NCBI GenBank assembly: GCA_950295325.1
Contig: OX485807.1
Span: 43,926,440 to 43,990,439 of the forward strand
From: Polytrichum commune
Taxonomy: Eukaryota; Streptophyta; Polytrichopsida; Polytrichales; Polytrichaceae
Reading direction: 5' to 3'
Length of the DNA stretch: 64,000 nt
The translations under genes and the position numbers were made by a program. Under the pieces are notes generated by a model, which was not told the DNA's origin, searched no databases, and saw only the letters and a list, made by a program, of their open reading frames with translations. This document shows positions 1,922-34,662 of the stretch, in pieces (within the stretch, counting starts at the first letter, position 1; the number at the start of each line of letters is the position of its first letter).

Positions 1922-1942
1922 CTAAACCTTAAACCCTAAATC
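1916..1942. repeat. telomere-like CCCTAAA motif run
   Basis: Three degenerate copies of the plant telomere heptamer (AAACCCTAAACCTTAAACCC, continuing TAAATCC) lie at the 3' end of the minus-strand FCP1-like gene. Read on the minus strand they encode its last residues and stop codon. It is either a short interstitial telomeric motif or chance. Confidence 0.5.
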
Positions 1943-3469
1943 CAAGTTGTGTGTCTGTCCACAATTTGGACAGTGATATGATTTTTCCAACTTCGAGCTA
2001 GACCTGGAGAAAGCACAAATTGAAATATGCTTTAAGCTCTTGGCCTTTTGTTTATACATTATAGATATTGTAATAGAGGAATCAAATGCTGCAACTATGG
2101 CACATGAAACAAGAAGGTTAGCACTAATGCCGGATACTAAAGAACCCCTAGAAGAGGCCACAAGAACTTCTAGTTTCTCTAGAAGAGGCCACAAGAAATG
2201 TCTCAAATAATTCTTGTCATCTGCAAGTTTTTTTATGTTTTCCACATTGAATGCGGGTGGGATGATGATGTTTGCGACTGGATTGCAGTTCACCACGGCT
2301 CCAATGTGGTCAATGATCATCGTATTGCTCTCATTCCATAACGGCCAAGTACTCCATACTTTGGACAAAGGCTTTTTCCACCTTGAGACCCCCATGTTCT
2401 CGGAGTGCTCCTCGCAATCCTTTGCAGACCAGCAGAACAAAGGCTTATGGCTCTCCAAGCCCTCAACCTTTCGCATCATCTCCGCCACTACGTCTTCCAT
2501 GTTGCTTAAACTCTTCATACCCCAAAAACCAACTGTAAATTTCCTAAAGCACCTGTCTAAGAATTCAGTTAACCAAGGTCGGAACACTATCCGTTGTTTC
2601 AACGACTTCCTAGTAATACGGATAGATGGATTAGGATTCGGTTTTGACAAAAGACTGCTATCTACAAGGGTGCCATGGATATTAAAAATCAAAAGTTTGG
2701 TTGCAGAGATTGTACCAATCATCCCGAGGACGGGGCTCACCTGGTCATGTGGATGAGCATCTTCATTGGCACTAGTTCCTACATTCGTAGAAGACTTCTG
2801 GTTATTTTTCCTCCTAGTTTTAGGTCTCACCCTCTTCTGAGGTGACACTGTCTGAGCTAGGTCATGAGGCTTACTGCTGGGACGTCTATTTGGCCCACTC
2901 CCAGACCCTTTACTATTGACCTCCCCACTATCTGTTGCTGGTTTTAGGACTATCTGCCAGGGCCTCAATCTTACTCTCACTCTTTCTGCCCTCTCCACCA
3001 GAATTACCCCCATCCTCCCCTTTCCCAGATGCTTTAAGACTGCTCTCTCCAATCTCAGCCACTACATTGCCCCCTAAATCTACTATCCCATCCTCTGTAA
3101 CTTCACATTCTAGACTCCCAACTACCTGCATTATAGACTTCCCTTTCAGCATGGCCACATCGTTGGCATCCTCAATCAAGTTCTCCTTCGAAAGGGGGGG
3201 TCACCCGCACTACATGCCACTGAAATGAACATACGATCCACACTAGGCACTTGAGGGGAAGTAGTTTTGGTTGTGGGTGACTTAGGCCCAGATACAGACA
3301 CAGGGTTCCCTATCTTCTCCATCATTATGGAGAACATTGAAGAAAGGTTGTTTAGCACCAGGGTGTTCTGTTGTTGATTGAGCAATACTTCAGACATTTG
3401 CTGCCTAAATTCATTTTGTGTTCCCTCTAATGCACTTATCCGTGATGAAACCCTTCCAGAAACACCTTG
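1922..3469 (-). pseudogene. FCP1/HAD-like pseudophosphatase domain, last exon of TnpA-like gene, frameshifted
   Basis: This is the last exon of the minus-strand gene that starts at 6525, or a captured gene fused to it. After a splice acceptor at 3470-3471 it encodes a Gln/Ser-rich, probably coiled-coil region, an acidic low-complexity linker, then an FCP1-like domain (roughly 2200-2700). The domain resembles the plant family with motifs of the type KLLVLDVNG, RPF..FL..CF..F.VGIWSS, LLFCWD and NESNTLLVDDSP. Here motif I is FNIHGT (codons at 2669-2686), so both acidic residues are replaced, and the DD motif reads IIDH. Phosphatase activity is therefore unlikely. Frame analysis shows a one-base loss at the G7 run 3194-3200 and an opposite shift near 2935-2960. 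The two restore frame, so the exon length is still a multiple of three. A CPNC motif near the C-terminus is unexplained. Confidence 0.6.
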
Positions 3470-7803: not shown

Positions 7804-8449
7804 TTCAACAACAAGACTATCTACCCAGCAATCTGCTTGAAGAGCTGAAATTGTACCCTACACGATGCAGTTTAGCCAATTTTGATAGTTAATTAGCACA
7901 GTCAAAAGAACCCATTAGGTGAGAAAAACACCACTGCGGAATTGTCCTGTAAGTTGCGCTCATGGTGTACAGAGACTGTATCAGTACAGTCAGTTGGTAC
8001 AGAGGTTTCTGGGCAGCCAGGTTGAGGGCTTAGGGTTTGGGGCACACAAGGCAAACAAACCCTAAGACTGTCCATTATGACTATCAAATGACTATGATTT
8101 TGGCCACGTCGATCAGACTATGACTTCAATTCGACTATAATTGTTGATATTTAGGAGTGATTTATAACTATATTATTACTGGTAATTAAGAGGTGGCAAA
8201 GTACCCTCGCTGAAACGACTAAAATATAACTATGTATTGAAGGAGCAAATTATCATTTCAGTGGCCAAACAGCGCATCATAAAATTTATAGGGAACACTA
8301 GTTTTCAGTAAATCAATCCATAGACACTCTATTTATGTAGCTACCTATACGGCTCACAACTCATTTGGTCACTGTCATCGTGATAATAGTCTCTGTCAGC
8401 GTATTGAACTAATGGAAGTGTATATAATAATATATGTGTATGCAGTACA

Positions 8450-11400
8450 ATGGACGAAAGGAGACTCCCCATTAGCGATATGAGAAGGCAACAACAACGA
8501 GATGATAGGCTATGGAAAAGGGAACAAGAAAGGGCAGCATTGTATAATTTGAAACGAATTCATTGTCCATGCTTCAAGTGCAAGGGACGTGTTCAGTGCT
8601 CTTTAGCAAAGGTCAAGGACCACCTCATCCAATATGGAAGGGAACCCACATATAGACTGTGGAGAGGGCCAGGTGAAAGAGACTCCTCAGATGAGGAGTG
8701 GGAACAAGAATTCAAGACACCCTTGAGAATACCTCAAGATGTTCAATTGGATGCAGGTTTGGATGTGCGGTCAATGGTGCAAGATGCATTCCAAGAAATA
8801 GACGAGCGTCCACAACCATTGGAGGAGATAGTGGAAGAAATTGTCATGGACGCGTTTACAGTTGTGGATGACCTACAAGATGGAGAAGATGATGACTCCG
8901 GCGATGAAGCAAATGAAGAACCATTGGGGGATGTTAGCAACGAGCCTGACAATGACGACAACCCACATGAATTAGAGGATGCAATTCAAGAATTGTATGA
9001 AGGTGCTAAATCATCCATATTAGCTGCAACAATCTTAATCATGACCCTTTGTACAATTCATGGAGTGAGCAACAAATTTGCCGATCAATTGTTTGCGCTA
9101 TTCAGCTTGCATCTTCTTCCTGGTGAGAATCGATTACCCAAAAACTACCATGCTGCGAAATCAATGATTAGGAAGTTGGGATTAAATTACAACACAATCC
9201 ACGCATGTGAAGGAGGATGCGTGTTGTTTAGAGGGCCTTATGAAAATGAGGTCCGTTGTCCAAAGTGCAATAAAGCAAGATACAAAGACATAGAGAAAAA
9301 AAAAAGACCTTGCAAAGTCCTAAGACATTTCCCATTGATACCTAGACTCAAACGTATGTTTCGTTCACCTGCGATTTCCGAGCTTATGGTTTGGCATTCG
9401 AAGAATAGGAGCACAGACGGGATGGTTAGACATCCTTGTGACTCCAAGGCATGGCAACATGTTCATAATAATGTAGATCCTACTTTTGGGGAAGATGTAC
9501 GCAATGTACATATAGGACTTGCAGCAGATGGAGTGAATCCCTTCAAGCTGCAACGTTCAACTTGGTCTACGTGGCCAGTGATGTTGCTTAATTACAACAT
9601 ACCTCCATGGTTGACAACCAAGAATTTTTTTGTTATGTTAGCCTTACTTATTCCAAGAAAACAATCGGTTACATCACATTATTTCGACGTGTATTTGGCA
9701 CCATTAGTTGAAGAATTACAACAACTATGGAATGGTGTCCTAGCATATGATGTATTGAAGGAAATAGGATTTCGCACATTTAGGTTGAGGGCGGTCCTAT
9801 TATGGACAATCCACGACTTTCCGGGGTATGGGACAGTAGCTGGCGTAGCACATCAAGGCTATGTTGCATGCCCAGTGTGTGGGCCAGATTTTAGGGGTGA
9901 GCATAGCATAGAACTTGGAAAATTAACTTATACGGACACACGTAGATGGCTTCCCTATGATGACCCTTGGAGATCTGCTAGAATGAAGGACCATTTCAAC
10001 GGCCGCATAGAACAAAGAGGTCCTCCCAAAATGGGCACAGCAGAGGAGCAACTACAACGCGGAATTAGTTACCAAGCATGGCTTGGTGAAGGAAACAGGG
10101 AGGGTAGCGATGGAGATCAATCGAAATTTCACGGTGTGAAAAGACGAAGCATTCTTCATGATTTGCCCTATTGGAAGGTACTTGCATCCTCATTCTCATT
10201 TTAAAAGTCAACCCTTACTATTTCTAACCATTCATAGTAGAAACAAGAAAGTACTAGATTAAATAGTGCAACCCATTTCAGTGTACATGTATTCCGATTA
10301 CTCAATTTTTTGTTGGTTTAACCGGGTATTTCTTAATATATTTTAGAAGTCTTTCCAACCAGCTACTTAGAGATGAACCGGTTGAGATTGAGAAATAAGC
10401 GGTTTAAGTTGAGACTGCTGGAACATTACCGATTATTTTAGAAGCAATTAGAGATATACCCCAATTTATGCAAGTTTCTTCAAACAGGATGTGAACATGT
10501 GCCATGTTGGGCTTGCAAACACTAGGATCTCAACCGATTATGCCCAACAGTGTCCCTGACACTGCTCCCAAATAATAGGTAAGATGTGAACATGTAAGGG
10601 CATCCCCAGGAGAGATAGTAAGCAACCCGCCAAAAATAATATATTATATGGTGTTTAGGGTGTTTGGGGAGCCCTCCATCTTGGGCGGGGCCGCTCATCT
10701 TGAGTCAGAGCCCACCAAAGCCTAGGCATACCCCCGGTATAATTAGGAAGCAATCAATAAGACAACGACACCTATTATCTGACATGGGATAAAGTAGGAT
10801 ATCGGAGTATCTGATATTAAAGTAATCTCTTGGCGGGCCGGAGGAGGGCCGCCATATGAACCATTTATGGCGTTGGAAGGCCTTTACTATACCCGGGCCG
10901 CTTCTAAATTATGCCGGACCGGACATTGGTGGGGATCAATTTATGCCGGTACCGCCACCTAAGAACCCGGGATGCCCCATTTTTGGCGTTGGCATGCCCT
11001 ATGGCGAGGCTGCTGGGGACGCCCTAAGTGGATGGAGTTGCTCACAGTAGATGTAGAATGTCAACCGGCTATTATGCACTAAAATCTCAACCGGGCCCTA
11101 CAACCAGATGTCAGGCTTATCGTCTCGTTGACTCTGGTGGTTGGCTTGTACAGGGGGGTGGGGGGAATAGGGTTGGGATTGCATTGCACATTGATTGCCA
11201 TTTGGGTGAACCTACATCCCCATTCCGATTTTAAAAGGCAACCCTACACCTTACTAACCATTCATAGCCGAGAAATGAAAATACTAGATTAATATATGCA
11301 ACCTAGTGCAATGTACAGGCATTCCGATTTATGAAAAAATTTGTTGGTTCAAATGTTTGCTATCTAATATATTTTATTTTGGTTTGGTGTCAGGATCTTC

Positions 11401-13161
11401 TTATACGATACACATTGGATGTGATGCACTGTGAACAAAATCTTTCAAAGAACATTTTGAAGACCATCACCGGACACAAGGATACAGTGAAAGTAAGACG
11501 TGATCTACAACGTAGGGGAATCAGGAAACACCTATGGCTCACTAGTAATCCCAAGAAACCGGGTAAAATGTTAAAACCTGCAGCAGATTATGTTTTGACC
11601 AATGAAGAGTTTGATATTTTTGCTAAAACTGTCGAATCTCTGAAGACACCTTCAGGTTACATATCAAACATCTCTCCATACATACGAAAGAAAAATTTTG
11701 GAGGACTAAAGTCTCATGATTATCATGTGCTGATGCAACAAATATTGCCGTTAGCATTAAGGGGTTTGCTACAACCTGGGCCGAGATTGGCAGTGATGCG
11801 GATTTCTAAGGTATTTCGGAGGATTTGCAACAAAGTCTACAATCCATTTGAGTTTGACGGACTTCGTGTTGATGTTGCGAGGAGTATGGCACTCTTAGAG
11901 ATGCACTTCCCTCCATCATTTTTTGATATTATGACACACTTGGTCTATCACCTAGTGGAGGAATTGGACTTGTGTGGACCTGTTTCAACGCGATGGATGT
12001 ACCCTGTCGAAAGGTACATGAAAACACTAAAGCACTATGTCCGCAATATGGCAAGACCTGAGGCTTCCATGGCAGAGGGATATGTGAAGGATGAATGCCT
12101 TGGTTTCATAACAGAATACATGCAGAGGTTTGAAGTTGTCGATAGACGAGTATGGGATGCTGATGAAGAATACGGAGATGCAGAGGAGGTCCTGGAGGGG
12201 GCAGGGACAAGTTTTGTAATGACTCAGCCGTTAAGAGAGCTTGCTCATCAGTATGTTTTAACAAACATATCCCTTCTTGAACCTTGGCACAGGTGGGTAT
12301 GAAGCATTGCAGTCATTTCTTGGTAATTTGTAAGTTAATGTTCTGTGGTATGACTGTAAAATGATTGAACAATGACTAAGGTGTAGATACCCTAAAACCA
12401 TATAGTAATGAAAATGTATTGTGCGCAGGCAATGGAGGGATGAAGTGAAGGAAAACCCAAACATCGACACATTTGATGTCTGGGTTAGAAAAGCAGTGCA
12501 GAACCATCCACATGACCCAAACAACATTGACGATATTGATAGGTTACTGTTGGTGAGTAGGCCATCCCAGAAAGCAACACGGTACACGAGGATGCGGGCA
12601 TTTGGATACCATTTTCGGGTGGGAGATTCGCAATCCGCAATGATGCAAACATATGACAGCGGAGTTGCTTCTATATTTGAAATGCCAACAGCAGATTCTC
12701 AGTCCAAGGTATCACTAAACTATGTTGGTGTCTTACAAGATATTTTGAAGTTGGATTATGGTCCATTGCGAACTCCCGTAATTCTTTTTCGGTGCGAATG
12801 GTTCAAAAGGGATGACAATCGTGGAAATCCAACGTACGTGCGAGATGATGCCGGTTTTATGGTTGTAAATACCCGGCACAAACTACCAAAGATGTCAGAG
12901 CCATTTATTTTCCCAAGCCAGGCTACACAAGTGTTTTTCTCCAATGATTTGACTAGGCCAGGTTGGAAGGTAGTTTTGCGGAAAGATGCAAGATCAAAAA
13001 GAGAAGAACAAGACACAACTAATGTTTTCATTATGACTAGTACAGAAGTTCAAGGAATGAGTGCACCTGAGCGTGTGCCTCCACCTCCAAGTACAGCCTC
13101 TCTAGTAGGGGCCATCGAATTATCCGATGTTGATAATTTGTTGGCTGTCGCAAAATTTTAA
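8450..13161 (+). CDS. CACTA (En/Spm) TNP2-type transposase, 3 exons, intact
   Basis: Three exons (8450-10177, 11394-12292, 12429-13161) with GT-AG introns give 1119 codons and no stop. Domains in order: Transposase-associated zinc-binding region with CPCFKC (residues 39-44), HL and the YRLW...GE signature; a long acidic linker (about 85-180); the Transposase_21 catalytic core (about 270-510) with CPKC, AADGVNPF (Asp360) and TIHDFPGYG (Asp456); DUF4218 (about 685-825) with FPPSFFDIM and RWMYPVERYMK; and DUF4216 (about 972-1060) with FRCEWF and the QVFF segment. The first junction reconstitutes LPYWK-DLLIRYTLDVMH, the expected family sequence, which strongly supports the intron. The protein would cut and join CACTA element ends in the nucleus. 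The gene looks uninterrupted, so the element may be autonomous or recently active. The element's CACTA termini were not identified. Confidence 0.85.
10183..11380. repeat. direct duplication inside transposase intron 1
   Basis: Intron 1 (10178-11393) carries two diverged direct copies of a segment of about 170 bp. One runs from about 10183 to 10350, the other from about 11208 to 11380. Both contain the string TAACCATTCATAG, then ACTAGATTAA, GTGCAA..GTACA, ATTCCGATT and TTTGTTGGTT. Between them lie about 850 bp with a GC-rich part (10680-11000) unlike the flanks. This fits an insertion into the intron or a duplication around an insertion. Confidence 0.55.
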
Positions 13162-13794
13162 AGGAGGCATGCTTATTTTGTATACAGTAATGACATTTGT
13201 GTATTGACATAATATGTAGGTGGTTTCTTCGCATAGGTGGCATATGGGAGGAGAGAGGGTGTGAGGCCAAATCCACCACCCTTAAGCATCCTAGTCCGGG
13301 TGATGGCTTTGAGAATCACACGTATCTCTTACAACCTTGAACCATGTACAAAGAAAGCATATTGTTTTCACTCATCGTGCTTTATTAATGTTAGCCTCTT
13401 GGCTCGTGCTAGAGGTGGCCTTCTCAAGAGTCCACCCCGCGGCTTTAGCCACACATGCCCTTAAGGACATTCCCCTTGCTCGTTTAACCTTCACTCCTTT
13501 TTTCTTGTCATCGCAAGAGTCTTCCACCTTCTTCATTAATAATGCCAGTGAGTTATTTTGACCGGGAGCTTCAAGTGTTGAAAAACACTTTACTCAACGG
13601 CTACACACACTCATACAATCCCACACGTAGCACAACTAGCCTTATAGGTCTAACTACTTATCCACCCCTAAGTGGTCTAATGTAATCTAGTTTTTTATAT
13701 GCTAACACCCACTAATTGGGTGTAGCCTTGCTAACCCCTAAATATCATTAATGGTAGGTTGTTGTTAAGCAACTCCAAACCAGTTGGCCAAGGC
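13162..13794. other. 3' flank of transposase, no gene
   Basis: This is ordinary non-coding sequence between the transposase stop codon and the satellite. I see no motif beyond possible 3' UTR sequence just after the stop. Confidence 0.4.
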
Positions 13795-15028
13795 CTTCGC
13801 TGCCTAGTAACCAGAACTCCAGCAGTGGCCGAGGCCTTGCTGCCTAGTAACCAGAACTCCAGCAGTTGGCCAAGGCCTTCGCTGCCTAGTAACCAGAACT
13901 CCAGCAGTTGGCCAAGGCCTTGCTGCCTAGTGACCAGAACTCCACCAGTGGCCAAGGCCTTGCTGCCTAGTAACCATAACTCCACCAGTGGCCGAGGCCT
14001 TTTGCCTAGTAACCAGAACTCCACCAGTTGGCCAAGGCCTTCGCTGCCTAGTAACCAGAACTCCAACAGTTGGCCGAGGCCTTCTGCCTAGTAACCAAAA
14101 CTCCAGCAGTTGGCCAAGGCCTTGCTGCCTAGTAACCAGAACTCCACCAGTGGCCGAGGCCTTCGCTGCCTAGTAACCAGAACTCCAGCAGTGGCCGAGG
14201 CCTTGCTGCCTAGTAACCAGAACTCCAGCAGTTGGCCAAGGCCTTCGCTGCCTAGTAACCAGAACTCCAGCAGTTGGCCAAGGCCTTGCTGCCTAGTGAC
14301 CAGAACTCCACCAGTGGCCAAGGCCTTGCTGCCTAGTAATCAGAACTCCACCAGTGGCCGAGGCCTTCTGCCTAGTAACCAGAACTCCACCAGTTGGCCA
14401 AGGCCTTCGCTGCCTAGTAACCAGAACTCCAACAGTTGGCCGAGGCCTTCTGCCTAGTAACCAGAACTCCACCAGTGGCCGAGGCCTTCGCTACCTAGTA
14501 ACCAGAACTCCACCAGTTGGCCAAGGCCTTGCTGCCTGGTGACCAGAGCTCCACCAGTGGCCGAGGCCTTCGCTGCCTAATAACCAGAACTCCACCGGTG
14601 GCCGAGGCCTTCGCTGGCTAGTAACCAGAACTCCACCAGTGGCCGAGGCCTTCGCTGCCTAGTAACCAGAACTCCACCAGTTGGCCAAGGCCTTCGCTGC
14701 CTAGTAACCAAAACTCCACCAGTGGCCGAGGCCTTGCTGCCTAGTAACCAAAACTCCACCAGTTGGCCAAGGCCTTGCTGCCTAGTAACCAGAACTCCAG
14801 CAGTTGGCCAAGGCCTTGCTGCCTAGTGACCAGAACTCCACCAGTGGCCAAGGCCTTGCTGCCTAGTAACCAGAACTCCAGCAGTTGGCCAAGGCCTTGC
14901 TGCCTAGTGACCAGAACTCCACCAGTGGCCAAGGCCTTGCTGCCTAGTAACCAGAACTCCAACAGTTGGCCAAGGCCTTGCTGCCTAGTGACCAGAACTC
15001 CACCAGTGGCCAAGGCCTTGCTTACCCG
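13795..15028. repeat. 39-42 bp satellite array with higher-order structure
   Basis: About 30 head-to-tail copies of a unit built on CCTAGTAACCAGAACTCCA, then (C/G)CAGT(T)GGCC(A/G)AGGCCTT, then (CG)CTG. Unit length varies from 39 to 42 bp because of small indels. A block of about 366 bp is repeated as a whole: the pattern starting at 13795 reappears at 14161. The right end is a run of 81-82 bp dimers alternating TAACC and TGACC variants (14763-15020). Reading frames seen here on both strands are by-products of the repeat. Confidence 0.9.
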
Positions 15029-20934: not shown

Positions 20935-23900
20935 ATGCACGCCGCAAGGATCGGCTTCTACGGTAATGCTATTAGGCTCGAGCAATGGGGCAAACGGAGG
21001 GTTGTCAAAGAAGTAAAGCTACCGAATCCCTCTGGTGTTGTTGTCAGGCTCGGACACCATGATAAATCTAGAGTTGTCGAAGAAGTCATGTGCACCAATC
21101 CCTTGGGCAATGTTGCCAGGCTCGAACACAATGCTAAATCAAGGGTTGTCAAAGAAATCAAGTTCCCTAATGCCTCCCGTAATGTTGTTAGGCTCCAGCA
21201 ATAAGACAAACGGACAGTTGTCAAAGAAATCAAGTTCCCCAATTAATCCCTCTGGTAAAGTTGTCATGCTCGAACACCTTGATAAATCCAGGGTTGTCAA
21301 AGAAGTCAAGTTCCGCAATCTCTTCGGTAATGTTGTTAGGTTCAAACACCATCTTAAATCTAGGGTTGTCAAAGAAGTCAAGTTTCCCAATCCCTCCGGT
21401 AATGTTGTCAAGTTCGAACATAATGATAAATCTCGGGTTGTCAAAAAAGTCAAGTTCCCCAATCCCTCCGTTAATGTTGTGAGGTTTGAACAGAATGATA
21501 AATCTAGAGTTGTCAAAGAAGTAAAGTTCCCCACTCCCTCGTGTAATGTTGTCAGGTTCGAACAAAACGATAAATCTAGGCTTGTCAAAGAAGTCAAGTT
21601 CCCCAATACCTCTCGTAATGTTGTCAGTTTCGTACAATATAACAAATTAAGGGTTGTCAAAAAAATTAAATTTCCTAATCCCTATGGTTATGTTCTTAGG
21701 CTCTCACAGTCTGACAAATAAAGGGTTGTCAAAGAAACAGGTTCCCCAGTCCCTCCGGTACTGTTGTGAGTTTCCATAATCTGTTAAATCTAGGGTTTTC
21801 AAAGAAATTAAGTTCTCCAATCCCTTCGGTAATGTTGTCATGCTCGAACACCATGATACATCCAGGGTTGTCAAAGAAGTCAAGTTCCCCAATCCCTCCG
21901 GTAATGTTGTCATCCTCGAACACCATGATACATCCAGGGTTGTCAAAGATGTCAAGTTCCCCAATCCCTTCGGTAATGTTGTCATGCTCTCACATCTGAA
22001 TAAATTCAGGGTTGTCAAAGAAGTCAAATTCCCCAATCCCTCCAGTAATGTTGTCATGCTTGAACACCATAATACATCCAGGGTTGTCAAAGAAATCAAG
22101 TTCCCCAATCCCTCCGGTAATGTTGTCATGCTCGAACACCATGATAAATCTAGGGTTGTCAAAGACGTCAAGTTCCCCAATCCTTCCGGTAATGTTGTTA
22201 TGCTCTCACATCTTAATAAATTCAAGGTTGTGAAAGAAGTCAACTTCTACAATTCCTCTGGTAATGTTGTCATTCTCGAACACCGTGATATATTCAGGGT
22301 TGTCAAAGAAGTTAAATTCCCCAACCCCTCTTGTCAACATCTCACAAGATGACAAATCCAGGGTAGTCAAAGAAGTCAAGTTCCCCAATCCCTCCGGTAA
22401 TGTTGTCAAGTTCGGACACCATGATAAATCTAGGATTGTCAAAGAAGTCAAGTTCCCCAATCCCTCCGGTAATGTTGTCAAGTTCGAGCACAATGATAAA
22501 TCTAGGGTTGTCAAAGAAGTCAAGTTTCCCAATCCCTCCGGTAATGTTGTCAGGTTCGAACACTTTGTTAAATCTAGGGTTGTCAAGGATGTCAAGTTCC
22601 CCAATCCCTCCGGTAATGTTGTCATGCTCGAACACCTTGCTAAATCCAGGGTTGTCAAAGAAGTCAAGTTCCCCAATCCCTCCGGTAATGTTGTCAGGTT
22701 GGATCACCTTGATAAATATAGGGTTTTCAAAGAAGTCAAGTTCCCCAATCCCTCCGGTAATGTTGTCAGGTTGGAACACCCTGATAAATATAGGGTTGTC
22801 AAAGAAGTCAAGTTCCCCAATCCCTCCGGTAATGTTGTCAGGTTGGAACACCTTGATAAATATAGGGTTGTCAAAGAAGTCAAGTTCCCCAATCCCTCCG
22901 GTAATGTTGTCAGGTTGGAACACCTTGATAAATATAGGGTTGTCAAAGAAATCAAGTTTCCCAATCCCTCCGGTAATGTTGTCAGGTTGGAACACCATGA
23001 TAAATATAGGGTTGTCAAAGAAGTCAAGTTCCCCAATCCCTCCGGTAATGTTGTCAGGTTGGAACACCTTGATAAATAAAGGGTTGTCAAAGAGGTAAAG
23101 TTTCCCAATCCCTCCGGTAATGTTGTCAGGTTCGAACACCCTGATAAATATAGGGTTGTCAAAGAAGTTAAGTTCCCCAATCCCTCCGGTAATGTTGTCA
23201 GGCTCGAACACCTTGATAAATCCACGGTTTTCAAAGAAGTCAAGTTCCCCAATCCCTTCCGGTAATGTTGTCAGGTTGGAACACTCTTTTAAATCTAGGG
23301 TTGTCAAAGAAGTCAAGTTCCCCAATCCCTCCGGTAATGTTGTCAGGTTGGAACACCTTGATAAATATAGGGTTGTCAAAGAAGTCAAGTTCCCCAATCC
23401 CTCCGGTAATGTTGTCAGGTTGGAACACCCTGATAAATATAGGCTTGTCAAAGAAGTCAAGTTCCCCAATCCCTCCGGTAATGTTGTCATGCTCGTACAC
23501 CTTGCTAAATCCAAGGTTGTCAAAGAAGTCAAGTTCCCCAATCCCTCCGGTAATGTTGTCAGGTTGGAACACTCGTATAAATAAAGGCTTTTCAAAGAAG
23601 TCAAATTCCCGAATCCCTCCAGTAATGTTGTCAGGTTGAAACACTCTGATAAATATAGGGTTGTCAAAGAAGTCAAGGTCCCCAATCCCTCCAGTAATGT
23701 TATCAGGTTGGAACACCCTGCTAAATTTAGGGTTGTCAAAGAAGTTAAGTTCCCCAATTCCTCCGGTAATGTTGTCAAGTTCGAACACCATGATAAATCT
23801 AGGGTTGTCAAAGAAGTCAAGTTCCCCAATCCCTCCGGTAATGTTGTCAGGCTCCAACAACCTGATAAGTCCAGGGCTGTCAAAGAAGTCAAGTTCCCCA

Positions 23901-24320
23901 ATCCCTCCGGTAATGTTGTCAGGTTCGAACAATCTGATAAATTCAGGGTTGTCAAAGAAGTCAAGTTCCCCAATCCCTCCGGTAATGTTGTCAGGTTGGA
24001 ACACGATGATAAGTCCAAGGCTGTCAAAGAAGTCAAGTTCCCCAATCCCTCCGGTAATGTTGTCAAGTTCGAACACGATGATAAATCCAGGGTTGTCAAA
24101 GAAATCAAGTTTCCCAATCCCTCCGGTAATGTTGTCAGGCTCCAACAACCTGATAAGTCCAGGGCTGTCAAAGAAGTCAAGTTCCCCAATCCCTCCGGTA
24201 ATGTTGTCAGGTTCGAACAATCTGATAAATCCATGGTTGTCAAAGAAGTGAAGTTCCCCAATCCCTCCGGTAATGTTTTCAATGACCTACAAATCAATAG
24301 ACGTAGGGAGTTGAATTGGT
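20935..24320 (-). repeat. 72-bp LRR tandem array (~46 units)
   Basis: The whole interval is a head-to-tail array with a 72-bp period, one 24-residue leucine-rich repeat per unit on the minus strand (consensus LTTLPEGLGNLTSL, then TLDLSxCSN). Units around 22370-23580 are nearly identical to one another, while the 20.9-22.3 kb end is more diverged. Because the period is a multiple of three and the unit lacks stops in several phases, four of the six frames remain open over long stretches. The second minus frame reads GELDFFDNPIFIKVFQPDNI. The plus strand reads KEVKFPNPSGNVVRLEH and SKKSSSPIPPVMLSGWN. Confidence 0.9.
20958..22341 (-). pseudogene. decayed distal LRR units of receptor array
   Basis: Downstream of the receptor's stop codon at 22342 the array still encodes LRR units, but only in short blocks in changing frames (about 22243-21704, 21660-21139 and 21242-20958). 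Clear lesions include an in-frame stop at 22247-22249 (a Gly codon position now TAG) and a frame change near 22335-22350. A further stop lies in the upstream LRR frame at 22704-22706 (Cys TGT to TGA). These units cannot be part of the present protein and look like a reservoir or relic of a longer ancestral LRR domain. Whether they are transcribed as 3' UTR is unknown. Confidence 0.65.
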
Positions 24321-24402
24321 GGTGTATAATGTCCATGCGAATGCTTAAAGGGCTTGGCAAACAAATTTCATGTATTAACATGCCTTCAATTTTTTGGTAA
24401 AT
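22342..24402 (-). CDS. PNL receptor exon 3: LRR domain plus out-of-phase repeat tail
   Basis: After the acceptor AACAG at 24403 the exon begins IYQKIEGMLIHEICLP and enters LRRs at SLKTLPEGLGNFTSL. About 15 LRR units of 24 residues follow, with SGCSN or SECFN variation on the predicted exposed face. At 23256-23257 a one-base insertion moves translation to the neighbouring phase. About 12 further units are then read as a different 24-residue repeat rich in Phe, Asp and Ile (core DFFDNPIFI) until the stop at 22342. True LRR coding sequence continues below in the other phase, confirming the indel. Confidence 0.75.
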   Translation of the reverse strand: MYQKIEGMLIHEICLPSPLSIRMDIIHHQFNSLRLLICRSLKTLPEGLGNFTSLTTMDLSDCSNLTTLPEGLGNLTSLTALDLSGCWSLTTLPEGLGNLISLTTLDLSSCSNLTTLPEGLGNLTSLTALDLSSCSNLTTLPEGLGNLTSLTTLNLSDCSNLTTLPEGLGNLTSLTALDLSGCWSLTTLPEGLGNLTSLTTLDLSWCSNLTTLPEELGNLTSLTTLNLAGCSNLITLLEGLGTLTSLTTLYLSECFNLTTLLEGFGNLTSLKSLYLYECSNLTTLPEGLGNLTSLTTLDLARCTSMTTLPEGLGNLTSLTSLYLSGCSNLTTLPEGLGNLTSLTTLYLSRCSNLTTLPEGLGNLTSLTTLDLKECSNLTTLPEGIGELDFFENRGFIKVFEPDNITGGIGELNFFDNPIFIRVFEPDNITGGIGKLYLFDNPLFIKVFQPDNITGGIGELDFFDNPIFIMVFQPDNITGGIGKLDFFDNPIFIKVFQPDNITGGIGELDFFDNPIFIKVFQPDNITGGIGELDFFDNPIFIRVFQPDNITGGIGELDFFENPIFIKVIQPDNITGGIGELDFFDNPGFSKVFEHDNITGGIGELDILDNPRFNKVFEPDNITGGIGKLDFFDNPRFIIVLELDNITGGIGELDFFDNPRFIMVSELDNITGGIGELDFFDYPGFVIL

Positions 24403-27400
24403 CTGTTTTTTGAAAATATAAAAGATATCAAAACCGCATCTCTCCAAATAACTTGCTCATAGAAATCAAATGTTGTCCTCAACAACCATAGAAAAACATA
24501 AACCATTGTAATGCATATTACATGAATATCTAGCATATGTTTGAACAACTTAGTTATGAACCCTTTTACCAACAAGTTTGCAACTCAATTTGGCTAAAAA
24601 AAACCTAATTCAAATTGCGAACATATAGAATACCTTGTTTGCTTGTTCATTTGCTAAAGGAATCATGATTTTATCCCAAATGCGAGTACCCTTATACACC
24701 TCGTCCTTGTCAACCATCATTCGTCCCATGTCACGTAGTTGGTCATGCATCTCCAGGAATCCAAATTCACTTATCTTGACCAAGGACCTCTCCACCAACA
24801 CATCAAGCACATGACTTGGAGATGCACATGTACGCAGAACGTTTTTTTTTTTATATCCCATGGGAAAGAAGCATGCTATGTCTAGAAACAACTTTTTCTC
24901 TTCGTCTTTTAATGCATCAAAACTAACCCTCAAGGTACTCCAAAGCCCTTCATCACCATCCAAACATCTGCCTCTTTTCATCCTTTGGAAAGCCCTTTCC
25001 CAACTTCGAATCCTCTCCTTTCCTTGCAAGAATGCACCCATCACTTTCAAGCTTAAAGGCAAGCCCTTGCAAGCTTCCACAATTTTGTCACGTATATCAA
25101 AGAACTGTGGTGACAATTGTCCTTCATCCGAAGAAGCATAAGAATTACACAGTTGTAATGATGCATTTCCATCTAACTCCCTGACATCTATCCTACCATT
25201 CTCCTCCACAAAAACCTTTAGTAGGCCCCAATCACGGGTTGTTATGATAATATTGGTGCCTTTGTTGACAAACTGAGCATTTGTTGGAATTATATCACGC
25301 ACTTGATCTTGATCTAGTGGATCATCCAATATAAGAATGACTTTCTTGTTGGCCAACAACTCCCTCACCTTTTGTTGAGCATCCACCATATTAGGCTTGT
25401 TTTCTTTGTCCAAGCTTTCAAGTTTTTCTAAAATTTCCCATAGGACTTCATGTGAAGTTTTGCTTTTCAATTGTTCAATAAAGCATGATGCATTGTATGT
25501 GGATTTCACATCATCAAATACAGCCTTAGCCAAGGTGGTCTTCCCTATTCCACCCATACCGATGAGACCCAAGACATTCACTTGTTTAAGCTGATTTTTC
25601 ACTTGAGGATGTTTGGTTTCAAGACCAACCAATTTTTCATTTTGTGTTGATAATTCATCCGCCTAAACAAAGAACACATACGTTAGGATCCTCTATTAAG
25701 AGTTCAATAATCAAAATCCAATTTCAACCAAATTAAATTAATAACAATAAAAACATGACATCTCATAGATAAGCAATAAGCACATTGTAGTAAACTTAAG
25801 TTCATACCTTCTTTGAAGCAAGGATGTTTTTGACATGCTTCAAGGCTTCCGATTTCCTTTCCATATGTTGGGTCATAGACCGGTGTTTATCAAACCTTGG
25901 TATATCATTCGAATACGTTCCAATCATGAACTCTTTCTTCAAGGTTCTGAGTCGTTTACAAATGTTAGAAAATGTTGGCCTTTGTGAAGGATCTTCAACC
26001 CAACATTCTTCGAGCAACACGGTAAGGTCCTTACAATTGATAGGTAGGTATGGCCTGACATGATCTTTTATGTTTTGTAAGATGTCTTCCGTGCTCTTAG
26101 TGTCCCAAAATGGTTGCTTAAGAGAAAGAATCTCTGAACATGTCATTGCAAATGACCATACATCAGCTTGGAAAGGACATGCCGCACAATGTGGGTCTTC
26201 TTTGTTTTTGTTCCCCATCTCAGGTGCCATATACTTTCGTGTACCGATAGTATGTATTTGTAATTCTGGTTTGCTTTGAACCTCCATTTTGGAAGTATCA
26301 TAATCCATCAATTTCACAAAACCATGGCCATAATTTCCCTTCACTCCTGCAATTCTCATGGAGCTTAGAAGCACATTGTCTGGCTTTAGATCAAGATGGG
26401 CAACATACATGTCATGAAGATAACACATGCCCTTTGCAATTTGATACATTATATCAATTGCAACAATATATGACAAGGGTTTCTTTTGCTTCTTCAAGAA
26501 ACCACCCAAGCTCATCTCCATAAACTCCATTACTAAATATAGTTCTTTTGCTTCATCAAGATTGTCCTCAAGGTTTTCATTAGTTCCACAACCAATGAAT
26601 TTGATGATGTTTGGATGGCTCAAGCCTGCTAAGAGTTTGGCTTCTTTGAGAGAGTTTGGAGAACCTTTCATTACTTTTGTTGCACTTTGAAGTCCCATCC
26701 AACTTGATTTGTACACTTTGCCTGTTGCTCCCGAACCTATTTCTTTCAAGAACTCCGGTTTCATAAAATCCTCTGAAATCTCCGAAGCATCCAATTCTGC
26801 ACCTTTCACTTGTTGCAAGTCGTGTTGCACTCTCTTCAACAAATATTTTGCCAATTTATGATTGGGCGTTCTTTGAAGGCATTCTAAAAGCCATTTTTCC
26901 AGGTCTTCTTCATCACCTTGAATTTCGTCATAAGTGGCCACATTAAAATCAATGCATGGGATGTCATGTTGTGACTCCACGCACCAAAGTGAATTTGCTA
27001 CGCATATTGCATCCCAAAAGCATTTCAAATCGTACACAAGTTCTCGAAAGGCCTCCCTATTGTTCATTTGGAATGCAGCTTCATGGCACCATTCTTGCTT
27101 CCCACAATCTTCCACCAATACTCGTACTCTTTGAATAATTTGACATAACTCCTCAAACACATGCCCGATATTGGAGGTCTCATTTGTAGACGTGATCATC
27201 CCATTGAAATGATACACAACTCGGTCGAGTTTGTTGAGAAGATTTTCACATTGTCTCTTATTAAGCACTTGCTTTGTCTTAAGAACCTCATGAAGTTTGG
27301 TTACTTCTTTGCTTTGCCACTCCAAAATATCTCCAAGCTTATTTTGTTCTTGTCCTTTTCGCACATATGTCCAAAACTTTAAAGAGATTATACTTATGAA

Positions 27401-27436
27401 ACCCCAAATCAAAACCCGCTGCAAGACCTTGGCCAT
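22342..27436 (-). CDS. protein kinase-NB-ARC-LRR receptor (PNL-type NLR)
   Basis: Candidate intracellular immune receptor. Three exons (27436-25808, 25662-24634, 24402-22342) join in phase 0 at AAG/GTATGA...TTTAG/GCG and AAG/GTATTC...AACAG/ATT. They give about 1572 codons: N-terminal helical region and kinase (1-543), NB-ARC (544-886), LRR (887-1572). Only the first ~382 residues of exon 3 are true LRRs. An extra T at 23256-23257 (CCCTTCCGG instead of CCCTCCGG) shifts the frame, and the remaining ~300 residues are the same repeat read out of phase, still open until 22342. Kinase-NBS-LRR order is the PNL class described in mosses; seed-plant NLRs instead carry TIR, CC or RPW8 domains. I start at the ATG at 27436 because the frame upstream contains a TATA-like element. 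Either the protein has an odd repeat tail or the allele is damaged. Confidence 0.8.
24634..25662 (-). CDS. PNL receptor exon 2: NB-ARC nucleotide-binding domain
   Basis: The exon encodes 343 residues and every NB-ARC landmark in order. It has a P-loop GMGGIGKTT (exon residues 35-43), kinase-2 VILILDDPLDQ, RNBS-B GTNIIITTRDWGLL, RNBS-C VRELDGNASLQLCNSYA, GLPL as CKGLPLSLKVMGAFL, RNBS-D FLDIACFFPMG and the MHD motif in LEMHDQLRDMG. FLDIACFF and MHDQLRDMG are of the TNL-like subtype even though no TIR domain is present. The domain should act as an ADP/ATP switch. No lesion is visible, so the nucleotide-binding part looks functional. Confidence 0.9.
25808..27436 (-). CDS. PNL receptor exon 1: N-terminal region and kinase domain
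   Basis: Residues 1-25 include a hydrophobic stretch (VLIWGFISIISL) flanked by basic residues, a possible membrane anchor. Residues ~30-180 are helical with the segment KRQCENLLNKL and a QMNNREAF motif. The kinase domain spans about 230-510. It has a glycine loop GSGATGKVYK (234-243), a lysine in SATKVM (Lys254), MEFMEMSLGGFL at the hinge, HLDLKPDNVLL (347-357), MDYDTSK (DFG position, 378-380), GTRKYMAPE (399-406), DVWSFAM and DPSQRPTF. HRD is HLD (a non-RD kinase) and DFG is DYD. The metal-binding Asp and the catalytic Asp are kept, so weak activity is possible. Fold resembles plant tyrosine-kinase-like/RLCK kinases. Confidence 0.85.

Positions 27437-34044: not shown

Positions 34045-34083
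<39 letters not shown>
34045..34083. repeat. (CT)n microsatellite
   Basis: A 39-bp uninterrupted CT run at the left border of the 297-bp duplication. Shorter CT runs lie at 34361-34380 and 34781-34811. Confidence 0.95.
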
Positions 34084-34085
<2 letters not shown>

Positions 34086-34662
34086 CAACAGATCTGTCTG
34101 TGCTCCTCAAATGACCGCGCAAGCTTCTCTGCCAGCAACGAAGAACCCTACCAGAAGGAATCTTCCGGCTCCTCCACCTCCTGAGAACTTCCACAAACCA
34201 AACCTGTCTCTAGATCCTCGTGCTGCCCTGCTCGAAAAAAACCCGCTCCTCCACGGAGCTGTCTGCCCTGTGATCTCGGTCATACCATCTCAATGCCAAC
34301 CAATGTTCCTCCCGCACTCTGTACCGACACTCCTCCGCAGACCTGGATGCCTCCACACCTTCTCTCTCTCTCTCTCTCTCCACAACAGATCTGTCTGTGC
34401 TCCTCAAATGACCGCGCAAGCTTCTCTGCCAGCCACGAAGAACCCTACCAGAAGGAATCTTCCGGCTCCTCCACCTCCTCAGAACTTCCACAAACCAAAC
34501 CTGTCTCTAGATCCTCGTGCTGCCCTGCTCGAAAGAAACCCGCTCCTCCACGGAGCTGTTTGCCCTGTGATCTCGGTCATACCATCTCAATGCCAACCAA
34601 TGTTCCTCCCGCACTCTGTACCGACACTCCTCCGCAGACCTGGATGCCTCCACACCTTCATT
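34083..34662. repeat. tandem duplication, 297 bp per unit
   Basis: Two nearly identical units (34083-34379 and 34380-34662) both begin CCACAACAGATCTGTCTGTG and end CCTCCACACCTTC. Differences are few, for example GCAACG versus CCACG and GAGAAC versus CAGAAC, so it is recent. A CT run sits before each unit, suggesting slippage or unequal exchange at the microsatellite. A plus-strand frame of about 197 codons spans both copies because 297 is a multiple of three. I do not consider it a gene. Confidence 0.9.

Follow-up and report, generated by a model that had tools for sequence, protein, structure and literature searches.

What stands in front of the kinase in a moss immune receptor, and what might it do there? 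The question is raised by a gene on the minus strand of a 64,000-nucleotide stretch of the Polytrichum commune genome (contig OX485807.1, positions 43,926,440 to 43,990,439; G000:C5:43926440-43990439 in our numbering), which we call the window and number from its first letter. By Pfam and profile matches the product consists, in this order, of an N-terminal helical domain, a protein kinase (PK), a TNL-type NB-ARC domain and leucine-rich repeats (LRRs); splice signals and relatives indicate three exons and two introns, both in phase 0. The original prediction, made from the sequence alone, had read the gene as a kinase-containing nucleotide-binding leucine-rich repeat receptor (NLR) and had recognised no family in its first ~230 residues. 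Our analysis suggests that the gene is probably a moss NLR of the PNL class whose front half is an MLKL-type module. We regard this front as one probable new insight, and a frameshift in the LRR tail as one correction.

The N-terminal region and plant MLKL

Exon 1 (25808..27436, minus strand, 543 codons) runs from an ATG at 27436 to the donor AAG/GTATGA. Its first 30 residues (27347..27436) comprise the start codon and a hydrophobic leader, MAKVLQRVLIWGFISIISLKFWTYVRKGQE, which by translation and hydropathy is a putative membrane-inserting helix (best 19-residue Kyte-Doolittle mean 1.55). Residues 31-155 (26972..27346) form a predicted helical domain with LN..QC and QMNNREAFREL motifs, and residues 156-222 (26771..26971) a brace or linker between this domain and the kinase. 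The leader pattern MA(K)xLQ..(I/M)W.FI is conserved in the wider clade of the window gene. The other clades with an HLD motif in the kinase start in a similarly hydrophobic manner, and the class encoded in a single frame starts with MDNSL or MDE(N/D)F, without such a leader. We infer that the leader may act in membrane insertion.

A profile of 41 N-terminal domains (A1, drawn from 54 rows at hand) and a second of 30 rows with the stand-alone kinases L059 and L060 added (A2) relate residues 31-155 to the HeLo/DUF1221 domain of plant MLKL. Against 177,635 PDB sequences, A1 placed first 6lba, which together with 6ka4 we take to be an Arabidopsis MLKL structure (E 3.3e-4); the next match (0.12) was unrelated. 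The match is colinear, with profile positions 51-151 lying on 6lba 20-128, and a second, weak stretch (175-216 on 185-229) falls directly before the kinase. Over A1 and A2 this second stretch covers about 184-229 of 6lba, the brace region, and it is the basis on which we assign the brace. A2 ranked 6lba first (7.8e-7) and 6ka4 second (0.04), with the next match at 0.12. With a full-length profile (A3), the best single stretch on 6lba among those printed (186 bits) joins the brace to the kinase, and a separate stretch covers the helical domain (0.00083). The kinase alone has 6ka4 (9.9e-30) and 6lba (3.6e-29) as its nearest PDB entries, with the next at 2.7e-23. In the parts of these papers that were covered, 6lba is called an MLKL protein (PMC10881975), an AtMLKL2 structure is mentioned (PMC9950082) and DUF1221 is equated with the HeLo domain of AtMLKL (PMC10951266).

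The genome itself provides a bridge between the two kinds of protein. We searched 407.8 Mb in 64 contigs, of which C1-C7, carrying all loci used here, sum to 406.1 Mb. The Pfam DUF1221 profile gave 15 matches of 16 scored, with one above the cut-off, in L059 (C1:75400340). The product of this gene, like that of L060, combines a helical domain with a kinase, and the 3.3 kb fetched showed no NB-ARC match; their DUF1221 scores are 26.4 bits (cut-off 25) and 22.0 bits, respectively. A1, which contains neither of them, scores L059 at 60.6 bits and L060 at 54.8 bits. For each gene we shuffled the N-terminal 230 residues 500 times; among the 261 and 431 shuffles that HMMER reported, the A1 maximum was 6.1 bits for L059 and 4.6 bits for L060, and the reversed sequences reached 6.0 and -2.3. 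When the profile is built from the first 28 rows only, the HLD clade of the window gene, the scores are 45.4 and 38.1 bits, against 8.6 and 6.3 for shuffles, and a profile of 13 deeper rows gives 53.4 and 43.0 bits. Two sub-threshold DUF1221 matches (C4:5412060 and C3:8796763) coincide with listed PNL N-termini, and another (C6:29251049) precedes an NB-ARC match by 1.7 kb; among the MLKL_N matches (32 of 37 scored), three sub-threshold ones (C3:52592067, C4:22096471 and C4:9530675) likewise coincide with listed PNL N-termini. The ratio of nonsynonymous to synonymous substitution rates (dN/dS) in the helical domain is 0.32-0.75, below 1 in 11/11 pairs.

A number of observations weigh against this relationship. 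Pfam finds no family above cut-off in residues 1-222 of the window member, and none of the 41 N-terminal domains exceeds a Pfam cut-off shown for that member. DUF1221 matched 2/41 domains (best 0.089) and MLKL_N 5/41 (0.022), while evidently unrelated families match as well (GIT1_C in 7/41, 0.01; ATG17_like in 3/41, 2.5e-5). The single window sequence retrieves no MLKL from the PDB; its best match is a designed coil protein (1.1e-4), and a coat protein is also found. The top PDB row of A3 by total score is 9p9u, above 6lba; this is an EGFR chain with two kinase copies at 108 bits each. AlphaFold2 without an alignment performed poorly, with a predicted local distance difference test (pLDDT) of 52 for residues 1-222 and 39 for exon 1. 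The model of residues 1-222 is all-helical at low confidence, and Foldseek returned no match to it at E 0.001; there were 194 matches at E up to 10, of which the best listed are largely designed or repeat proteins and were not used as evidence. Finally, dN/dS of the brace reaches 1.09 in 1/11 pairs. Because the direct Pfam matches are at noise level, the single sequence misses MLKL and no confident model is available, we grade the relationship of residues 31-222 to the plant MLKL HeLo/DUF1221 domain as likely rather than proven, and hold it with considerable confidence. For the region in which the original prediction had recognised no family, a link to plant MLKL is the most likely answer. The structure prediction proposed at the same time yielded only the all-helical model.

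Kinase, NB-ARC and membership of the PNL class

Residues 223-503 (25928..26770) form the protein kinase (Pfam Pkinase 2.9e-41, residues 229-494), for which a full order of motifs had been claimed. The catalytic residues Lys254, Glu265, Asp349, Lys351, Asn354 and Asp378 are indeed present, but HRD reads HLD and DFG reads DYD. We counted these positions in 53 exon-1 rows, having dropped L003, L012 and L039 as truncated or broken (L001 is the window gene). The beta-3 Lys, alpha-C Glu, His and Asp of the HxD motif and catalytic Lys are kept in 53/53 rows, the Asn in 52/53 and the DFG Asp in 51/53, being lost in L027 and L028; in seven rows Pro replaces the first glycine of the G-loop. The HRD position reads HLD in 37 rows, HRD in 15 and HHD in one, and the HLD rows form one side of a single branch with support of 100 in a quick tree. 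The DFG Asp is absent from the stand-alone L059 and L060 and from 6lba, which reads GFG. The PNL kinase therefore looks catalytically equipped from its sequence, unlike the MLKL pseudokinases, and we rejected the idea that the class has generally lost kinase activity, because the catalytic residues are kept. Pairwise dN/dS of the kinase is 0.24-0.57, below 1 in 11/11 pairs.

Intron 1 (25663..25807; 145 bp, GT...AG, acceptor TTTAG/GCG) is followed by exon 2 (24634..25662), delimited by Pfam and splice signals. It encodes the NB-ARC (about 25608-24970, Pfam 1.9e-36), a winged helix (WHD_ROQ1, about 24915-24712, 2.7e-12) and an MHD motif (about 24750-24742). Its FLDIACFF-type motif is what we take as the label of a TNL-type NB-ARC; the winged helix is that of TNL proteins, but the gene has no TIR domain. 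Intron 2 (24403..24633) has the donor AAG/GTATTC and the acceptor CAG/ATTTACC, which sets the start of exon 3 at 24402. An alternative acceptor at 24286 was rejected because exon 3 would then fall in a shifted, unconstrained frame, while the constraint sits in the LRR phase. This splicing model is drawn from signals and relatives. Comparison with near copies does not by itself prove it, as introns are about as conserved as exons (to L058, 97.1% for intron 1 and 97.0% for exon 1); the same alignments contain indels of 9 and 3 bases in exon 1 and one of 2 in intron 2.

The available parts of Xue et al. (2012; PMC3352924) name the PNL (PK-NBS-LRR) class of Physcomitrella patens and describe phase-0 introns between the PK and the nucleotide-binding site (NBS), and between the NBS and the LRR. 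The window gene has the kinase N-terminal of the NBS (Pkinase in exon 1, NB-ARC in exon 2), phase-0 introns at both module borders by splice signal, and a C-terminal LRR of 14 units in phase before a frameshift. By sequence it is a genuine member of this already known class, as had been predicted, and the profile searches that had been suggested recover all three modules (LRR_14 in exon 3 at 7e-43).

The architecture had been called non-canonical, which is correct against seed plants; in this genome it is common. The N-terminal domain gives 150 scored matches out of 382 candidates among the matches listed, on all of C1-C7, some of them fragments of one place, so that the true number may lie below or above this figure; NB-ARC gives 126 scored matches of 466 candidates. 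The nearest copy among the matches listed (C5:44053834) is 98% identical in residues 1-222 and lies 100 kb away. NB-ARC follows exon 1 in 4/4 diverged relatives checked (L042, L044, L047 and L049), which rules them out as stand-alone kinases, and also in the near copies L057 and L058. For six relatives, the open frame that carries the N-terminal match is as long as the one that carries a nearby NB-ARC match (1280, 1503, 1618, 1633, 1827 and 2086 codons). A seventh (L054+L066, C6:37264550-37275950) can be read from the N-terminal domain through the kinase and NB-ARC to the LRRs within a single frame of 3,674 codons; its modules were identified by inspection and by aligning the front half.

Several further loci were observed in the same searches. 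Stand-alone genes for a DUF1221-type helical domain and kinase, partly in tandem (L059, and L060 with L061 at C5:49384871-49397237), are moss MLKL-like candidates. Eight MLKL_N matches above the family cut-off (including C7:41446218 and C6:1271178) lie outside the PNL N-termini listed. L006, L007 and L008 (C6:6282668, 6387833 and 6423210) encode an identical exon-1 protein, with one copy inverted, a recent segmental duplication.

The LRR array and a one-base shift

Exon 3 runs into a 72-bp tandem array (20998..24281, 45.7 copies, 84% matches by Tandem Repeats Finder). Read unit by unit in the LRR phase, it comprises the junction and then 14 units of 24 residues, NLTTLPEGLGNLTSLTTLDLSxCS (23278..24402, minus strand). 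In the 15th unit one extra base (23257..23258; GGAGGG read as GGAAGGG) shifts the frame, and from there to the stop (22342..23256) the open frame is a shifted reading of the repeats that contains no LRR. The frame stays open past 23258 because the consensus 72-bp unit is open in 4/6 frames. The three exons of the original prediction stand, but its extension of the LRRs to 22342 is wrong past about 23258, and exon 3 is not LRR throughout. The ~305 last residues, which read NITGGIGELDFF..., are the same 72-bp unit in another frame.

In the LRR phase, 22342..23256 holds 12 further units, one with a stop (TGA at about 22704), and later units of the array are decayed and out of phase. Across these 12 units the ratio of nonsynonymous to synonymous differences (pN/pS) is 0.47 overall, 3.27 at exposed codons and 0.19 at the others; in the shifted phase (11 units) it is 1.85. 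The 12-unit count replaces one of 13 units (0.77 versus 2.36) that held an out-of-phase unit. A new repeat domain in the tail was ruled out, as the constraint is found in the LRR phase and is absent from the shifted one. Since constraint in the LRR phase persists after the insertion, the one-base shift near 23258 is either recent or an assembly error in the tandem array. With its LRR shortened in this way, the window copy may be impaired or may end in an altered C-terminus.

By periodicity, L057 has about 36 units, L058 about 32 and the large relative (L054+L066) about 108. In the last, 39 consecutive units are identical at a shift of 40 in motif-matched order, which is a recent block duplication. 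At the five exposed codons of LxxLxLxxC, pN/pS in four arrays is 1.64, 4.55, 2.1 and 1.63, compared with 0.48, 0.45, 0.77 and 0.36 at the other codons. Among 42,504 possible five-codon sets, a share of the replacements this large is reached by 91, 428, 8 and 194 in the respective arrays; these counts are not probabilities, as the units are non-independent through duplication and conversion. Comparison of the units indicates that the LRR scaffold is homogenised and that replacement differences concentrate at exposed beta-strand positions.

Elsewhere in the window, 8408-13158 on the plus strand encodes a tnp2-kind DNA transposon (Transposase_21 at 8e-63, with Transpos_assoc, DUF4218 and DUF4216), and a GC-rich 41-bp tandem array of 30.5 copies (13779-15022) directly follows the transposase frames. 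An open frame at 1925-3061 on the minus strand contains an NLI interacting factor-like phosphatase domain (NIF, 9.3e-11). Two tandem 297-bp copies with 98% matches (34064-34659) lie in a local peak of C-over-G skew, and the open frame there has no Pfam match.

A proposed mechanism and its alternatives

Plant MLKL or DUF1221-kinase proteins (such as 6lba and 6ka4), which Mahdi et al. reportedly described in 2020, share the order of helical domain, brace and kinase with the PNL gene, colinear by profile, but they end after the kinase, whereas the PNL gene carries exons for both NB-ARC and LRR. The PNL genes of P. patens (PMC3352924) and the Pkn-NLRs (PMC11218826) have the same order of kinase, NB-ARC and LRR, phase-0 border introns and a large moss family; the parts of these papers covered describe the N-terminal module as a kinase only, while here an MLKL-like helical domain and brace precede it. 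The moss genome examined here also contains single-exon members, and some of its homogenised LRR arrays are very long. The sections covered of the report on wheat Pm13, an MLKL_NTD-kinase fusion, describe a HeLo-type domain and, behind it, a kinase considered functional (PMC10951266); Pm13 lacks NB-ARC and LRR, and we liken it to the moss domain by description only. Wheat Tsn1 likewise has a kinase before NB-ARC and LRR, and this kinase is needed for cell death in Nicotiana (PMC11218826, in part); it is an angiosperm protein, compared by description and not by sequence.

The anatomy, relatedness and constraint described above are results from sequence; the following steps would extend them by analogy with animal and plant MLKL and with other NLRs. 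The LRR array would recognise either a molecule of the pathogen or a host protein under guard, and replacement of ADP by ATP in the NB-ARC would lead to oligomerisation. This could release the N-terminal helical bundle, held until then by the brace and kinase as in animal MLKL, and the leader and bundle might then enter the membrane and cause cell death. The kinase, with its catalytic residues kept, could tune the release as a gate or signal as a second output. By this analogy the N-terminus would kill cells or act on membranes. In its widest form the proposal is that each moss kinase-NLR incorporates a complete MLKL-type executor into the receptor, that the class may have arisen by fusion of a HeLo-kinase gene to a TNL-like NB-ARC-LRR, and that its homogenised LRR arrays, of up to ~108 units, diversify at exposed positions; we would give this even odds. 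The moss HeLo-kinase genes that are still found as stand-alone tandem copies may represent the kind of gene that was the fusion partner.

A different view of the front half takes the N-terminus for a helical domain of the coiled-coil (CC), RPW8 or Cbl-N kind, or of no known kind, and ascribes all output to phosphorylation of targets by the kinase, as the name Pkn-NLR implies. RPW8 matched 5/41 members (best 0.029), as weakly as MLKL_N, and the near-complete retention of catalytic residues in the 53 rows would suit a kinase output. Chia et al. (2024; PMC11218826), in the parts covered, tested N-terminal modules up to the NB-ARC; the P. patens kinase N-terminal domain gave a modest and variable response, and wheat Tsn1 a reliable, HRD-dependent one. 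The modest moss response is compatible with either output. Colinearity of domain, brace and kinase with MLKL, the DUF1221 bridge through L059 and the constraint on the helical domain in every pair argue against a front of another kind, which we consider unlikely.

Doubts about the window copy concern the gene itself. It could be a decaying pseudogene that has lost more than half of its LRR units to the frameshift and yields no working receptor, a reading to which we give slightly less than an even chance. The inserted base, the in-phase TGA, the decayed later units and the single frame of about 36 units in L057 fit such decay, but exons 1 and 2 remain open and share 99% identity with L057, and the apparent constraint on the 12 units past the insertion points to a recent shift or an assembly error. 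It is highly improbable that two adjacent genes are involved, one with the kinase exon and one with the NB-ARC/LRR exons, given the 145-bp phase-0 intron with good splice signals, the NB-ARC that follows exon 1 in the four diverged relatives and in both near copies, and the single open frames that join the modules in others. An MLKL-type module at the front of a PNL-class receptor remains our preferred reading of this gene.

In the part of the open literature that was searched, supplements aside, we found no paper linking the N-terminus of moss kinase-NLRs with MLKL, and an earlier mention elsewhere is possible. A review, in the part covered, still calls for experimental evidence on the kinase's part in immune execution (PMC10952240). 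Kinase-NLRs are a major class of moss receptors, and if their front is of MLKL type, how their N-terminus acts would become directly testable by common assays of cell death and membrane action. The homogenised LRR arrays offer a natural repeat-protein system for asking whether the exposed residues make up a surface from which recognition can be read. If the proposal is true, one molecule would unite two branches of plant immunity, that of MLKL and that of NLRs.

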